Below, in pieces: positions 1,082-50,103 of a stretch of DNA of 64,000 bases. A program made the translations under genes and the position numbers. The notes beneath the pieces were generated by a model. It did no database searches, was not told where the DNA came from, and saw nothing but the letters and a program-made list of their open reading frames with translations. The DNA comes from Patagioenas fasciata (lineage: Eukaryota; Chordata; Aves; Columbiformes; Columbidae). Location of the stretch: assembly GCF_037038585.1 (NCBI RefSeq), contig NC_092525.1, positions 24,138,867 to 24,202,866 of the forward strand, read 5' to 3'. Every line of letters begins with the position of its first letter. Positions within the stretch are counted from its first letter, which is position 1.

Positions 1082-2053
<972 letters not shown>

Positions 2054-40707: not shown

Positions 40708-40812
40708 ATGCCCGCCAAGTCCAAGTACAACCTGGTGGATGACCGGCACGACCTCCGCATCCCGCTGCACAACGAGGACGCCTTCCAGCACGGCATCTGC
40801 TTCGAGGCCAAG
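40708..40812 (+). CDS. NOS1AP-family adaptor, coding exon 1 (residues 1-35)
   Basis: Encodes 35 residues beginning [20 protein letters not shown] and ending HGICFEAK, the start of the PTB domain of the carboxyl-terminal PDZ ligand of neuronal nitric oxide synthase (NOS1AP/CAPON). Family members link nNOS, through a C-terminal PDZ ligand, to PTB partners such as DEXRAS1 and SCRIB at synapses. The exon ends AAG|GTGGGC (donor GT at 40813-40814, phase 0). The start has an ideal Kozak context (GCCGCCATGC). The frame stays open upstream to an ATG at 40462, but the family N-terminus supports 40708. Compared with my recollection of vertebrate NOS1AP (MPSKTKYNLVDDGHDLR…), this differs at residues 3, 5 and 13, which is notable in a very conserved region and favours a paralogue. 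The symbol is left blank because orthologue and paralogue are unresolved. Confidence 0.9.
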
Positions 40813-40814
40813 GT

Positions 40815-40855
40815 GGGCAGCGGGCGCGGAGGGGGTCGGAGGGGCGTCCGCGGGG
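40815..40855 (+). other. G-quadruplex motif at the 5' end of intron 1
   Basis: G-runs on the sense strand start 2 nt after the donor GT: GGG, GGG, GGGGG, GGGG and GGGGG, with loops of 4 to 7 nt. First-intron G-rich tracts are common in vertebrate genes and can affect elongation and splicing. Confidence 0.5.
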
Positions 40856-43800
40856 GTCCCTGTCTAACGCTCGCACCCCGAACCCTCGGGATTCCCTGTT
40901 TTCTATCTCTCATTTGGCATAGCCTTGGGTTTTCTCCACTTTCACCAGGAGACCTTCCCCTTGGGGTTGCCTGCTCTCCCTCAAACTCAGCTGCAAAGAG
41001 TCGGGCGAGGCTTCCCACCCATCCCCTAAGGATGGCGAAGCTGGTCGGGTGAGTCCACCTGGAGCGGGGGTCACCCTTCTGCTTCACCATGGCATCCCTC
41101 CTTGGCTCTGCATCCTTCCTTGGCTCTGCGTGGTGTTGCCTGGGGACGCTGGCCCAGGAGAGCCAGGGACTGTGTGCATCTGCCTAGAAAGAGCGGAGAG
41201 CTGGGGCTTTGCTCTGCATTTCCAGCGACTTGGGTAGTGCTGCTGTGATGGGGGTCCAGTTGGTGTCTGCAGGATGCCCTGGTGCTTCTCTAATGGGATA
41301 AACTCATTATGTGAGTGGAGGGAGGAACTGCATGCCATTTGTGGTGCAGTGCAAGAGGTCAGGGCTGCCAGCCTGAAATAAATTTCTCCTTACATATATA
41401 AACCATTCTTGCTAGTGGATTTGGCAGGAAGCAGTCTTTTTTTTTTCTTTCTCCTTCCTATTGGAACCTCTCAGTCTTGTACTCTGCTTAGGTTGTGGCT
41501 TTCCACAGTGTGAGCCCTTGTGATCTCGCAGCAGGCTGGGAAAAATCTCAGCTACCCATCATTGTTGCTGAGCCCCAAGCAGGTAGCACTGGCTGGCAGT
41601 GTACCGGGGAGTAGCTGGGCATGAAGTTTGAAAAGGGGAAACATAAAATTCTACTCCCTTTGCTGCTCCTGAGGGATATGGTTGTCACGCTAGTGAGAGG
41701 CTGACTTGAAAAAAAACTGGTGTAAAACAGTTCTGAGTGGCAGGGAGGCAGGCATCTGTTGCACACCGTTTTCCTTGGAGCACGTGTGCTGTCAAGGGAA
41801 AAAAATCACAGATTTGGCATCTAATTGCATGCAGTGCCCTGGGGGCAAGGTTGTGGCCCATTGGAGGGTGTCAAAGTGTTATTTTCCCCCTTTTGTCATG
41901 GCTGGGAGGCTTTCTCTGCAGATGCCATTGCCTTCCTGATGGGCACTGTGCTACAGAGAGCAAAACAGCAGAGGAGTTGTTTACGGAGCAAACTTAAACC
42001 TGCTTTGCAACTCTTTCCTGGGAAAGACTCTTCAAATTCAGCTTTGCAGCCTTTTGCTTCTGGATTGTTGGAGATGATTGCGGTTTTATGGCCAGCACCT
42101 GCTCACGCCTCACCTGTGGGGAGGCTGCAAAGCATCTCCAGTACTAAATGCTATGTACCTCTTCCATGGCAGGTTTGGATAGCCCAGCTTGGGGGGTGAG
42201 GAGTGGGGTAGGGCTTCAGCTGCCCCCTCGATCTGCTCACAGCTCACCTCTTTTCCGTGCTGCTGGTCTGGCTGCATGAATGGGGTTGTGCATGTTAGTC
42301 TTTGTTAGCTCTTCTCTCTCTCATTTGGTATCCCGTGGCACGCGTTAATGCCAAGCACAATCCATACAAAACCCAGCTTCTGAATTTGTGGGTTTCTCCA
42401 GCAGTTCCTGATGCCAGATGTAGAATGCAGATGGCTTAGGCAATTACTCCATCCTTTTATTAGATTGCTGGAGATTAATTAAATGCTTACACTCCTTTAG
42501 TTCCTTTTATCCTCAAGAATCCCAAGTGCTTAAACCAGCACAGCTCTTGTTTTGGCTAGGCACCCAGTGCAAGTCACAAAAATGAGGAACTCTGATTTAG
42601 AGCAGAGCTTTGGGGGAAAATTAAAGAAGAATGCTCATCTGGGACAGTAGGTTTCATGTGCCTGTCTCCTAGAAGGCTCCTAGGACTGCTGATAAAGCAG
42701 GCAGCGTGGATCCCAGTGTTCCAGCCCTCAGCAGCTGGATCAGCGGTCTCTGCTCCAGCAGCCCAGGATTCCTGTCGAGCTTGCTTGGGGCTCACTGCAG
42801 GGGGGTAACGTGGGCCTGAGTCGGTGTGCGCTTGTTTATTATTTTAATTTTACACTGAGACCTATGCTGTCTGGTGCTGTCTTTACATGGCGCATGGAGG
42901 ATGTAACAGGTGCTTTGGTTCATCAAGTAGCTGCTGGCATCTGTGCTGTTGTGCCCCTTGCCTCTCTCCCAAGGGAGTGCAGGCACCTTGGGGTGGGTCG
43001 CCACAGGCAGTTGGGATTTGGGCCCTTTTCAAGCACAGAGCGATGGACTTGCTCTGAAGCAAGAGGTGGTGTCACATGCGATGCCATCAGGAGACTTGAG
43101 TTGCTTGTCCCCACTGCAGCCATATGCTCTGGCACAGGGATGCCAAGTCTGAGTGCAATGTCCCCTAAGGATTATGTTAATCCATTTTCTGGAGATAAAT
43201 CCAATAGTTGGAAAATCCTATTCCATCTTCTTAGGAATAGTAATGCATTTCACACTTTTGGATCTGTTTTCATTGGCCACCTCTCTTGGCACCAAATCTG
43301 TCTGTGTCCATGAGGCTCCTCAGCCGGGCTGCTGGGAATCAGAGATGCTGGCTCTGAGGGAAGGCAAGGCATTCACCTTCTACTATGTCTTGTGATCTGA
43401 ATTGTTGAATAAAATCAAAAGCCAGGCCTCCTGTGTTAGATGAAGCAATCAGATGAAAGATGTGGAAGCTGCAGCGTGGCACAGGAGAGCAGGTATAAAT
43501 TGCCACTTGTGCAATGGTTTCCTCGTTAAATAAATGGGTATGTAGAGAGCAAAGACTCCTTCTGTCCTCCTCCACCTCTCTGCCCAGCACTTTACCAGTT
43601 GGGGTGAGGAGGAGGGGGATGTGAGTTTACTCCTTATCTTCCCAAAGCTGCAGGACAAAATACAAGGGCCAGTTTGTGCAACACCAGCAATTCTGCACAT
43701 TCAGAAATCATGACTCAGGCTACTCCAATGCCTACAGAGAGATCAGCACATAAAGGCAATTAAATGGAGTGATGGAACCTGTCACTGGACTGCCGGACCC

Positions 43801-46556
43801 CCAGTCCATTCAAGTGCAGGGGTGCTGCTGGGTTTGCATGGGGAAGCTGTTGCTGGCCTCTGTCATTAGAGCTGATCTCAGGAGCCCCCTGGGCTGGACT
43901 CTCCTCAAAAGCAGCAAGAGATCCCTCCTGCCCTGGAGATCTTGTGGTCTAGAGCAAGGTCCCACCTCCCAAATACCCATTATTTGGAAACAGCTCTTAA
44001 TTCTTCAGTGCTGAGACGCACTAATCTATTAACAGTGCCATGGCATACATGGTTCGCAATGAAGGGAGGAGATGGGGAGATGCTGCCCATCTGCAGGCTG
44101 GGGGAGATGGGCTGTCCAGCCAAACCTGGGTCCTGGGGCAGACCCACCACCTGCAGTCCCGGACTGCCATGGACTGGGACAAGATGTGCTGAGAACTACT
44201 TTTCCTGATATCAGACCTGTCTGGAGATAAATGTGGGACTGGAGGTTTGGGAGGATTGCTGTCCTGGGCAGCAGGTGGGATTTCTGGGTTTGGGTGGTGG
44301 TGTGTTGTTTTTTTTTCTCTCTTAAAGGATCTTGGGAACCAGGCACTTTCTCTCATATTTGTCAGTACTTTTCTCTGCTTTTGTGCGTGGGAAACTGAAG
44401 TTGAACCGAACATCTGCTGCTGTCTCTGTTTGCAGATGGGACATGAAGGAGACTTTAGTGTGATCCAGTAAGTTCCTTCCTCTGAAGCCCTCCAGCTCAC
44501 CTGCTGCCACCTTCCTGAGCCTAGCAGTGCTGGCAGTGCCTGCCAATTGCTGAAAAGATAAATCCTTTATCAAGAAAAGGATCATGACCTCAGATGAACG
44601 CTAAGCAAGAAGTGCATGTGTGTTTCCATTCTTGTGTATATTTTTATGTGTGTAGGGTCCGTACATAAAAGCATTTGAAGTAAGTTGGATTGCATGCAGC
44701 TGTGATCAGGGTCTTCATTTCCCCCCTCTGCTGCAGGCTCCCTTCCCGCTGAGATTCCCTTTCCGGGAGGGCTGCGAAGCCAGAGACGGGTTGTGTGAAG
44801 CTCTGCACCTCTTTAGCTGACTGGGAGAGACTTGGCAGCTTTATTTGGGGGCTGTTCGTACTGGCAGCTCTGGAATAGGGCATGCTGTGTCAGGGCTGCT
44901 CAGCCTAGAGCAAAGCTGCAGTGTGATTTAGCCCAGGATTGCTTGCTTGAGGCTATAAATAACCTTCCCGAGTGCCACAAAAGTTCTCGTTTGAAACGGT
45001 GGCATATTTCTGCCATACTTGTTAAGTCAGTTCACAGGCTGCTAAGTGAAGCTCTTAGCAAAAAACAATCCTCTGCTGGGATTTGGCAAAGCTGCATGTG
45101 CCCAGACTGTGGGTACTGACCGGGTAGCATGTGGGCTCAGCAGATGCCAGAAGGTCCTGAGAAAGGAGTGATGGGGGTGAGATGCTCTCAGCCCTGCTTT
45201 CTGGCCGCTGAAGTGCTTGGATCTTGCACAGCCCATACATGAATGCCTGCTAAGACTGTAACTGGGTGTAGGTGCAGGAATCTTCGTCCCTGTGTGTGGG
45301 GCAGCTGCAGGCAGCATGGCTGGATGGAGTATGGAAATTGGGGCAAGTGGACAGCCTTGCTTTATTGGCATGGAAAAATATCAGCTCTCCTGCTGCACCC
45401 CCTTGCTCTGTGTCCTGCTGTTCCTACCGCAGGGTCGCATCCTGCTACAGAGGTGTCTCCCCTTATTGCCCAAGCCCCATTTTGGCTGGGGAGAGGGGAG
45501 GGTGGGTGCAGTGCATATGGCTCTGGTGGGCACTGGGGTCTTGTGGCTGGACCCCCATTATTGCTGGTGCTCGAGCCCCTGTGCAGCTCATCAGCAGTGC
45601 AGGCATTTCTAGGATCAGCAGGCAGGTGAACACCAGTATCCTTAGGGCATTGGCTCGGCCACTGCTGACTGGCATGAGGTGGCCCTGCATTGATGCCCGC
45701 TGGCTGGTTGTGTAGCTCTGGACAGATCTGACATGCAGCATTAAACTACCCGGCCTCCAGAGCTGGACGCACCCCAGTGTCTTTAGGGTGCAGAGTCCCA
45801 TCACAGGAGGGCTGGAGCCCTCCGGCACAGCGGAGAGCCTGCTACACCCATCTGTTGGGCTCGGGCTGGAAAGCCAGGGCTTTTTTCCGTTGAAGTCAGC
45901 TGGCATCCCAAATTTCCGTTGCTTTTGGCCTCTGAGTCTGCACCACCGCAGTCTGAGTAAACTTCCCCCCTTTCTCCCAGCGAGGCTGCGTGTTCCTGGG
46001 GTGCGGGGCAGAGCTGGTGCCGCACCAGCCCAGCCCCGTGGCTTCCCGGTGGAGACTGTGCGTGCGTGAGTGGGAGCACTGAGACAGCAAAAGTCCCAGG
46101 AATTTGATTTCTCCTCGCTTTCCCTGATGGCAGCAGCCCCAAGAGAAGCCCTTATCAGCCAGGCTGGGTGTTTCCCTGAGCACTGGGGAAAAAGAGAAGT
46201 TTCAGATATTGGGGCACCTGGCTGGGGTCTGATGCCCAAGCACTTTGGCCCTGCAGTTCCTCTGCAGAAGCAGTGGCTCATCATCTGTGGCAAGCTCCCT
46301 GACTCCGGGTGGCTTTCCATGCTGGAAGCCCATCGGCCAGCCCATCTAGGCTCCCCTGTAAGCTGGGTATGATTCAGCCCTGACCTTTGCACGCAGGATG
46401 GGGCTGGCGGGGAGGCAGCGTTCCTCCCTCGGGAAGGCGGCAGCTCTGCTCGGGGAGGCTTTTGCTGCCCACTGCCTGCAAGGGACCTCATCAACACCCC
46501 TTGAAAGGTGTCCCCCAGTCAGGGATGCGGCTGGCCTTTGGTTTTCAGAAAATATC

Positions 46557-46569
46557 TGCCACCTGCTGT
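46557..46569 (-). promoter_or_regulatory. CTCF-like core in intron 1, minus strand
   Basis: The minus strand reads ACAGCAGGTGGCA, one mismatch from CCASYAGRKGGCR (A for C at the first position). Confidence 0.35.
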
Positions 46570-49500
46570 CACAGAAAAAGCACCTTATCAAGAAAATCCA
46601 TTTCTGACAGAGCAGAAAACAAGCACTATTGAACAACCTCAAGGAAAAATGAGAAACTAAGTGACTTGTGCAAATATTGCTTTGGCAAAATGCTCTCCTT
46701 TGTTTTCTGTGTGTGGGTTTGTTTTGATTTGTTTTTTTTTCCCTCTGTCCTGGGGAGGACTGGTATTTCCCTGAACTAGACGGGTCTTGTAAGCCATGGA
46801 AGCAGGGTGCGTAGCGTGGGCTGTGTCTGGTGGCCCCTTCCAGCCGTGCCCAGGACAGATGACCCTGCTTGCATGGGAGGGGGACAGCAAGCAGGCTCCT
46901 TTTGGGTGCTGAGAAGCCCCGATCTGTGACAGCCACCATGCCTGTGCCATGGCAGGGTGAGGGGCTGCCCTTTCTGGGGGCCCGGGAAGGACGGACAGAA
47001 GGCTGGGTCCCACACATGGGGATGAGGAGCAGCAGGGTGTGCAGGGACTGAAAGCGTCCTGCAAAATAGGTGCTTTGTGCCTGCCTGTGCCACTGGGCAA
47101 CACAGCCCCGAGCGGATCTGGCCACATGCAATGCAAGGGCAGCCTTTGTGGGGCTGCCTCCTTACAGGAGGGACCCCCTTGGCTGCCCATTCATTGGTGC
47201 TCTAAACAGGCAGCCTTTCTGCTCCTAATTGGGCTGGGGAGGAAGGGGGCTGCCTGGGACTGCCCTCCCCACTGAGATTGGTGACCCCCTAATCCCGCCT
47301 GGCTCTTGGGTGCAGGTGGGGGTCTCCACCTCAGCCCCCCAGCCCCTGGCAGGATGATGGGGATACAGATCTGGAGGTGATTATTTGGGAAAGCTGTGTC
47401 CTGCATATGTGCGTGTGGTTTCCTTCTTGGATCCTGGGGGCTTGGGGAGGATGGGTTCTTTCATGGGTTTATTTTCTTTGTCAGCTCTCTTTCACACAGC
47501 TTTCTTTTCCTTCCTTTTGTCTGGAGCGCCTTCCTTTCTCCTCCCCAGGCTCAACCCTGGGCCCACTGCCTCCCTTTCCTGTGGGGCTGACCTGCTGGCA
47601 TGGATGCTGGCGGAGCCCTGGGAGCCTGGACATTGTCCCCTGCAGGGAGCAGGGTCACCTCACTTGAAGCACACAGGTTTTAGAGGAAGGCAAAAGCCCA
47701 TGTACCTGGGGTCTGGGAGCTCAGTGTTCAGGGCTCCCTGGGGCTCCTGTCCCAGGAGGAGGAAGCTGTGTCTCAGCATTTCGGTGGGATGAGGGGAGAG
47801 TCTCCTGCCCTGGAGGCTCCTGCTGCTGTGCTGATCCTCACCTCTGCATCGCCTGCTTTTGCCCACAGCTCTTCCTGAAATGAAGGTTGGTGCTGTGAGT
47901 AGGAGGACTGGAGGAGAGCAGAGCAGGAGCAACCTTTATCACCTGTAAATCACTAATAAATACGGGTGGTTTCTCAGCCCGTCCTTACTCCTTGCCTGGG
48001 AAATAGGCAAGACTGACCTCTAAGTCCACATTTTTGGGAGGATACTCATCACATTGTGAAGAGTTACTCCTCTGCAGTGCCGTTCCTGCTTATGGTTTCT
48101 GCCCTGAAGGCAGAGATAATCTGGAGACACTTTGTCCATCTGTTGAGTTTAGTGAAATGTGCACAAAATACCTGCCTGCAGAGTAGGGGGAGAGGTGGGT
48201 GTTTTTGGAGCTGTGATTACAGTAACTGCGTGAAGTGAGCCCACACTGGGGCTGGAGGTGCTCTGGGCTCTGGTGGAGCCGCGCTCTGAGTGCGGGGTGC
48301 CGCAGGGTGTCCTGGAGCCCAGGTTTGGAGCAGAGACAGATCTGTATGGTTTGTGACTGGAGGACCATCCAAGGAGGCCCAAGGTGGTGTCTGGTTTCTG
48401 CTGGGGAGGCTCAGAGAGAGAGATGCTGTGGAGCCAGGATGTCCACCTGACAGCAGAAGGCAGGGAAAGGTTTCTCTCTTACATGCTGCATGGTGACTAT
48501 GTGCCCAGGGCTCTGGCTGCCTCAGCCCTCTTCCTCACCACCTACTTTTTACTGGTGGCTTCCAGACTTTATATAAGAAAAGTGAATTGACTGATGTCAA
48601 AGATGCCTCTCTTAATATGACCTGAACATTTGAAGGGGCAGGAAGGCTCTATTTAGGGGATGTCACTGAAAACTTATAAAGACTTGTGCTTTTGTGGCTG
48701 GGGTTTGAGCATCTGGATCTGGGCAACTGATGCCACCTTTGCTGGCAGTGTGTATGGTGGGCCTTAATTCCCAGTTACGTAAAGCTGCCCTGCGCCATTG
48801 GCAGTCTGTTCGGCACGTGATGGGCTCACCAGCTGTTTGGTGTTTATTTTTATATCCCCTCTATTTGCATCTCCTTGCAGCACCAACTGCCCAGTGCTGG
48901 TTGCTGAATGCCTGCCTCCATCTGCAGCCAGGGCAGGAGCAATGTAGCTGGGGGTGGCTTTGCCAAGCTGGGGGGGTCTGCTCGAGTTTGGGGTGCAGAG
49001 GGTTTGCATGGAGAGCTCCTGGGGACAGCACACACACAAAACACAGGGATGGTCATGCAGCCTCTGAGCTGTGTCCTCAATGGAGGTGACAGCAGCGTCC
49101 CAGCAGAGAGAATCTGGGAGTCCCGCAGTGATGCTGGGTAAGGAACAGCCCTTTGCCTGCACCATGACCCCGCGCACATGTTTGGGCATCTAAACACCCA
49201 TCTCAGCGCTAGCAACCAGTGACCTGCATTTTCAGGGTGTCAGCAAAGGCTGCGGTCGCGTTCGCAGGAACATACAACCCTGCAGGGTTTGGTGGCCGCG
49301 CTGTGCTGCTGGGGGTTACGTCAGCACTCGTGTTGAGATGAAGCGTGGGAGCACAGAGGGCTAGTAAATAGACTCTGAATGCTTTTCTTCTGACTACGTG
49401 TTTTTAGCGCTCTGCATTGACTCTTCATCACTTGTCTGTTTTCTGATCCTTCTTCTGAATCTGCCCTCTTCCATTTTACTTCTTAAAGGGTTTTTGTTTG

Positions 49501-50031
49501 GCAGCTCTCCATGCTGGGTCGCAGCGGTGCTGCCTTTGGTCCCCTTTGAATAGCAAAGTGGCTCCTTTATTCTGCAGGCTTGGCCTGGAGGCTCAGCATC
49601 GCTGTAAGAACAGCCAAGGGTTTGGCAGGGCTGTAACTGAATAGTGAAGGGCCTGTCACAGGACAGGTTGCCCCAGCTATTTTAAGGATATTCCAATGTC
49701 CAGGTCTATAATAGATGACTCAGTGCACCCGAGGGCATATTGGCTTATACCTATGTACTTTGATCATGGCATAGATGAATGAGTCCTGCTGGCCTGATTA
49801 TTGAAGTTATTTTATTGTTAGAATAGGGACTGCTGAATCCTTGAAACATTGCAGTGGGGGAACAGCTTTGTGGTGGGAGACATGCAATGCTTCAGTGCAG
49901 TGGGCAAAATGCCTCTTGTTCCCCAGAAGTGATGCTGGGTTCTCTCCAAGGATGCCATCAAAGCTTTGGTGGGACCATGAGGTTCCCAGTGCCATGGAAT
50001 CTTGACTAATCTGTTCTTTCTTCCCCTACAG

Positions 50032-50103
50032 TACATTGGGAGTCTGGATGTGCCACGGCCGAACAGCCGGGTGGAGATCGTGACGGCCATGCGGCGGATC
50101 AGG
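50032..50103 (+). CDS. NOS1AP-family adaptor, coding exon 2 (residues 36-59)
   Basis: Seventy-two nt encode 24 residues, YIGSLDVPRPNSRVEI followed by VTAMRRIR, which continue the PTB fold. The YIGSLDVPRP segment is the PTB β-strand that follows the N-terminal helix. The acceptor is CTACAG|TAC and the donor AGG|GTGAGT, both phase 0, matching exon 1. The recalled NOS1AP has YVGS and VAAMRRIR, so there are conservative changes (V to I, A to T) in an otherwise fixed segment. The next expected residues, a YEFKAKN-type lysine-rich segment, are found nowhere downstream in the window, so exon 3 lies beyond 64000. The gene is therefore truncated by the window edge, not broken. Confidence 0.9.

Follow-up and report, generated by a model that had tools for sequence, protein, structure and literature searches.

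A NOS1AP gene brought beside TMEM121 by chromosome rearrangement, and a candidate NOS1AP ohnologue on another contig of the same genome

NOS1AP (CAPON) is known as an adaptor of nNOS and as a QT-interval gene, and in human it lies at 1q23.3 in the order ATF6-OLFML2B-NOS1AP-C1orf226-UHMK1-UAP1-DDR2. The human genes MTA1-CRIP2-CRIP1-TMEM121 are found at 14q32.33 together with AKT1, and beyond TMEM121 lies IGH. According to PMC5350102, efficient docking on the nNOS PDZ pocket needs an ExF motif (residues 429 and 431), a structured element located between residues 400 and 506, and IAV at the C-terminus; PMC3276551 describes the PDZ ligand EIAV as identical across vertebrate NOS1AP orthologues and makes the case that NOS1AP acquired its binding to nNOS in vertebrates. 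The exons of C1orf226 belong to human NOS1APc, and SCRIB, VANGL1 and KANK1 are among the proteins with which NOS1APc associates in human cells (PMC11607453). Here we describe a window of 64,000 nucleotides (C6:24138867-24202866, C6 being the contig that holds it; C27, C3, C41 and the like are other contigs of the same genome), which contains TMEM121 and coding exons 1 and 2 of a NOS1AP-type gene. This gene is almost certainly the one-to-one orthologue of human NOS1AP and not a paralogue; it is an already known gene in a rearranged neighbourhood. A second NOS1AP-type gene was found on C27, and its simplest reading is that of a 2R ohnologue, that is, a copy dating from the genome duplications of early vertebrates. 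For comparison, human and chicken sequences and the human gene order were taken as general background and not from database records, except for the positions of homeobox genes (PMC2211742).

Orthology was judged from one human NOS1AP sequence and from gene order, with three sequences compared (human, window and C27) and a single genome surveyed. Over exons 1-9, the window gene is identical to human NOS1AP at 309 of 361 residues (85.6%) and the C27 copy at 235 of 353 (66.6%), whereas the two genes of this genome agree with each other at 232 of 354 (65.5%). The PTB exons (1-6) of the window gene match human NOS1AP at 179 of 198 residues, and its tblastn pieces show 69-94% identity. Among 351 gap-free columns, 225 are identical in all three sequences and 35 differ in all; human and window alone agree in 74, human and C27 alone in 10, and window and C27 alone in seven (with an expectation of one third and the sites treated as independent, 74 of 91 has a binomial probability of 6e-21). 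These patterns pair the window gene with human NOS1AP. The gene stands in the 1q23-type block itself and not in a separate paralogous region.

An earlier note, made from the letters of the window, had taken this gene for an ancient duplicate of NOS1AP, partly on account of at least five substitutions within 59 residues of the PTB region. The two phase-0 exons that encode these residues are both present on the plus strand and, given a genome search that found only two loci, are not a product of chance; five differences from human NOS1AP were counted, namely S3A, T5S, G13R, V37I and A53T. Five in 59 is in line with the rate seen in an orthologue (compare the 179 of 198 above), and the C27 copy shows 10 differences from human in the same 59 residues, so that we rejected the argument for paralogy drawn from these five substitutions. 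Nor did the idea of an ancient duplicate at this place hold, the gene having 1q23-type neighbours of its own and being closer to human NOS1AP than the C27 copy is. The expectation that the genome holds a NOS1AP ohnologue fared better, in that a second NOS1AP-type gene exists, but its place is C27 and not the window. The genome thus has two NOS1AP-type loci rather than one (C6 and C27), and the comparison, limited to three sequences, groups the window gene with human NOS1AP. The locus with 1q23 neighbours such as OLFML2B, which the note had proposed to seek elsewhere in the genome, is that of the window itself, and the C27 copy lies among 9q33-type genes.

The exons of the window gene and of the adjoining C1orf226 homologue are as follows.
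Window 40708-40812, plus strand: NOS1AP coding exon 1, 35 codons in a CpG-rich stretch, with a GT donor and a phase 0 end
Window 50032-50103, plus strand: NOS1AP coding exon 2, 24 codons, AG and GT borders, phase 0 to 0
C6:24179574-24179678, 24188898-24188969, 24207415-24207507, 24207859-24207932 and 24208532-24208640, plus strand: NOS1AP exons 1-5
C6:24208828-24208969, 24210180-24210343, 24210894-24211061, 24213786-24213951 and 24214503-24214909, plus strand: NOS1AP exons 6-10
C6:24219806-24220073 and 24220171-24220657: two exons of a C1orf226 homologue, Pfam DUF4628 (PF15429), 174 bits
Exons 3-10 thus fall outside the window, at C6:24207415-24214909, in the 20 kb examined after its end. The model comprises 10 intact exons with GT-AG borders in an open frame and gives a protein of 499 residues, which has a PTB domain (Pfam PF00640, E 1.7e-30, residues 32-174), a Q-rich or coiled-coil stretch and the C-terminus SLEDEIAV. 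The C1orf226-type exons stay in frame after NOS1AP exon 9, and a long form of 615 residues, made by splicing exon 9 into them, is therefore possible. A PDB search with the 59 residues of exons 1 and 2 gave a single weak match, to PTB domain-containing engulfment adapter 1 (E 0.64). No Rfam match at the gathering score was found in the window. The genome (1.454 Gb in 359 contigs) was searched with the PTB region of the C27 copy, which gave 10 exon matches at two loci only, C6 and C27; the search scores the best candidates only (here 12 of 12), and a very divergent NOS1AP copy could escape it.

The second NOS1AP-type gene (C27:10353206-10377991) has 11 exons with GT-AG borders and encodes 640 residues in an intact frame, with a PTB domain at Pfam E 1.2e-30. 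The surrounding 200 kb of C27 contain 300 N letters, none of which falls in the exons of the gene, its translation having no unknown residue. Its exons 1-9 (105, 72, 93, 59, 109, 142, 161, 168 and 166 bases) have the same phases as those of the window gene (105, 72, 93, 74, 109, 142, 164, 168 and 166), and seven of the nine are equal in length; only exons 4 (59 and 74 bases) and 7 (161 and 164 bases) differ. The nNOS-binding exon of NOS1AP is lacking: the intron after exon 9 has 207 bases and leaves no room for an exon of 407 bases. The only end found consists of two terminal exons of the C1orf226 type, and the protein ends in RVPP, with no EIAV. The evidence for kinship of these exons to C1orf226 consists of a match over a single stretch of 20 residues (11 of 20, E 0.007), the same phase and the same place, while a Pfam scan of them at E 0.01 detected no family (no DUF4628).

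Within 200 kb of the start of the C27 gene are a PTGS gene that best matches PTGS1 (145.7 bits against 139.3 for PTGS2), GPR21 (664.8 bits against 513.1 for GPR52) and two long reading frames that we take to be ZBTB6 and ZBTB26. In human, PTGS1, GPR21, ZBTB6 and ZBTB26 form a 9q33.2 set. None of five other genes, that is, the 9q33.3 markers RPL35, ARPC5L, PSMB7 and NEK6 and, besides them, UHMK1, was detected in C27:10353100-10553000 at 1e-3. Elsewhere on C27 there are genes of the PBX3, OLFML2A, UAP1L1 and DDR types, the family member being our assignment in each case. PBX1 and PBX3 are placed at 1q23.3 and 9q33.3, LMX1A and LMX1B at 1q24.1 and 9q33.3, and PRRX1 and PRRX2 at 1q24.3 and 9q34.11, the last pair being stated to share a paralogon, in PMC2211742. 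By the Nei-Gojobori method (NG86), the synonymous divergence (dS) between the window and C27 genes is 1.29 and the nonsynonymous divergence (dN) 0.11 in the PTB exons, and they are 1.44 and 0.27 over exons 1-9, values which indicate a protein under constraint and an old split. The simplest reading is that the C27 gene is a 2R ohnologue of NOS1AP, standing in a region paralogous to 1q23. No human counterpart of it is known, human not being known to have more than one NOS1AP gene, and it may have been lost in mammals. Somewhat less firmly, we consider it rather probable that the C27 gene as a whole is an undescribed ohnologue of 9q33 origin, intact in this (probably bird) lineage, lost in mammals and provided with the long C1orf226-type end only.

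The C27 copy could instead be a later, lineage-specific and fast-evolving duplicate, which we consider improbable. The comparison is limited to three sequences, the C27 copy is the most changed of them, and a fast later copy would likewise yield many sites shared by human and window alone. However, sites shared by window and C27 alone are not in excess over those shared by human and C27 alone (seven against 10, p 0.63), and the synonymous divergence given above is high in both sets of exons. In addition, several C6 genes have counterparts on C27 (of the UAP1L1, DDR, OLFML2A and PBX3 types), and the three homeobox pairs are divided between 1q23-24 and 9q33-34 (PMC2211742), all of which argues for the older duplication.

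The genes around the window on C6 were named by matches to the human sequences; DDR2 (by PDB), the DUF4628 gene and TMEM121 (both by Pfam) were also checked independently of these sequences.
C6 15.7 Mb: PBX1, 84% for the best exon
C6 23.87-23.89 Mb: MTA1, 75-91% over five exon matches
C6 23.957-23.960 Mb: CRIP2-type gene
C6 23.974 Mb: CRIP1
C6 24.140 Mb: TMEM121
C6 24.180-24.215 Mb: NOS1AP
C6 24.220 Mb: C1orf226, DUF4628
C6 24.223-24.227 Mb: UHMK1, 72% for exon 1, 86 and 92% for further exons
C6 24.239-24.240 Mb: UAP1, 78, 63 and 52%
C6 24.254 Mb: DDR2, 94, 88 and 86%; in a PDB search, DDR2 scored 174 bits and DDR1 99
C6 24.300 Mb: OLFML2B-type gene with a split OLF domain
C6 24.364 Mb, minus strand: ATF6, 90 and 70%, against 61% for a copy on C41
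The last six genes, from C1orf226 to ATF6, all lie downstream of NOS1AP, within 190 kb on C6, and the DUF4628 gene is presumably C1orf226. A PDB search with exon 1 of UHMK1 gave no match. The OLF domain is split at profile position 55-57 only at C6:24.30 Mb and C27:11.18 Mb (on C16 it is split elsewhere, and the other matches are single pieces), which suggests OLFML2B on C6 and OLFML2A on C27. Several points weigh against the 1q23-type assignment or the gene order that it implies. The UAP1 query 211-289 matches C27 at 71% and C6 at 63% (both matches cross a stop and include an intron), the PBX query 179-222 matches C39 at 74% and C27 at 71% against 61% for C6 (where the match crosses a stop), one AKT exon is found on C3 at 88% against 87% on C5, and the block from NOS1AP to DDR2 is inverted relative to OLFML2B-ATF6 when set against the human order. 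On the other side, the UAP1 query 279-348 gives 78% on C6 against 57% on C27, the other AKT exon gives 95% on C5 against 78, and the remaining exons of UAP1, PBX1 and AKT1 favour the assignments given.

Apart from these genes, an extra discoidin-domain-receptor gene at C27:2877576-2881973 is nearly equidistant from DDR2 and DDR1 (105 and 102 bits), and a DDR-type gene also exists on C41, besides DDR2 on C6; human has two DDR genes. At C2:88784473-88961295, a tandem cluster gave 12 matches to chicken ovalbumin (clade-B serpins), of which three reached 68, 61 and 60%. Among other chicken proteins, alpha globin matched its best gene here at 66% (query 30-125, a match that may take in intron) and 80% (query 94-142), and lysozyme matched at 55%; these values are compatible with a bird but fall short of proof.

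TMEM121 and the interval between it and NOS1AP are as follows.
Window 1115-2053, plus strand: TMEM121, a single-exon coding sequence of 312 residues, Pfam PF14997 (CECR6_TMEM121), E 3.9e-65, closing the segment MTA1-CRIP2-CRIP1-TMEM121
Window 2054-40707, no strand: interval of 38.7 kb in which the TMEM121 segment meets the 1q23-type block led by NOS1AP
The order and the common strand of TMEM121 and NOS1AP are as the earlier note had described them; the distance, given there as about 37 kb, is slightly larger, 38,654 bases from the TMEM121 stop to the NOS1AP ATG. MTA1, CRIP2, CRIP1 and TMEM121 are on C6, AKT1 has its best match at C5:62.0 Mb (95 and 87%), and the window therefore spans a rearrangement joint. 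TMEM121 stands beside NOS1AP through chromosome rearrangement, the joint lying somewhere within window 2054-40707. The segment found at 14q32.33 in human would here have been joined to an inverted 1q23 block, making TMEM121 the neighbour of NOS1AP. Relative to its human place the odd neighbour is the TMEM121 segment and not NOS1AP; either side may have kept the ancestral order. That the joint separates blocks which lie on different human chromosomes might also reflect an assembly error fusing two chromosomes, but this is very unlikely, since the window contains no N letters and belongs to one contig of 56 Mb, in which MTA1 and the CRIP-type genes continue on one side and the 1q23-type genes on the other. 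As a separate matter, a further PF14997 gene at C3:14255579-14256487 shares 66.8% of its residues with TMEM121 of the window and 62% with that of human, and a PF14997 match within an open frame of 663 residues (C1:151217292-151217879) is probably TMEM121B.

That the window gene is itself the ohnologue, with the true NOS1AP elsewhere in the genome, is extremely improbable: a second NOS1AP-type locus does exist and TMEM121, a 14q32.33 gene in human, does adjoin the window gene, but it is the window gene that has the higher identity to human NOS1AP (85.6 against 66.6%), the EIAV end and the neighbours C1orf226, UHMK1, UAP1, DDR2, the OLFML2B-type gene and ATF6, the other copy lying among 9q33-type genes. 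The C27 gene as a candidate for the true NOS1AP was rejected; it is further from human, ends without EIAV and has 9q33-type neighbours.

As judged from its family, the window NOS1AP would act as an adaptor, its PTB domain binding polarity and adhesion partners and its last exon providing the docking site for the PDZ region of nNOS; the whole docking stretch lies within the last exon of the short form. The long form of 615 residues would act like NOS1APc. In contrast, the C27 protein, which lacks the nNOS-binding exon and ends in RVPP, should not bind nNOS in the manner of NOS1AP. By analogy it most likely works like NOS1APc; its first terminal exon, which hardly resembles the C1orf226 counterpart, weighs against such a role, as do the negative Pfam scan for DUF4628 and the limitation of the match to one stretch of 20 residues.

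The window itself is of little significance, being the site of a known gene in a rearranged neighbourhood, and the C27 gene, a side result, is the weightier finding. Among the matches listed in the open-licence literature, no paper treats a NOS1AP paralogue or a TMEM121-NOS1AP neighbourhood. An intact second gene that lacks the nNOS-binding exon would represent a natural separation of NOS1AP functions. If the reading is correct, the C27 gene keeps the PTB-based polarity and adhesion role of NOS1APc with no nNOS docking, and two functions that in mammals come from alternative splicing of a single gene are here partly divided between two. It would also have a bearing on when the nNOS-binding exon originated relative to the genome duplications, a timing that can be tested.

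In comparison with the human systems, TMEM121 of the window is identical to human TMEM121 at 241 of 312 residues (77%), against 62% for the C3 copy, and this genome has three PF14997 genes (on C6, C3 and C1), human having two. The window NOS1AP resembles human NOS1AP in its PTB domain, coiled-coil stretch, EIAV end, adjacent C1orf226 exons and 1q23 neighbours. It differs in adjoining TMEM121 and in the ExF motif, which reads ECY in its last exon (C6:24214503-24214909) and ECF in human.

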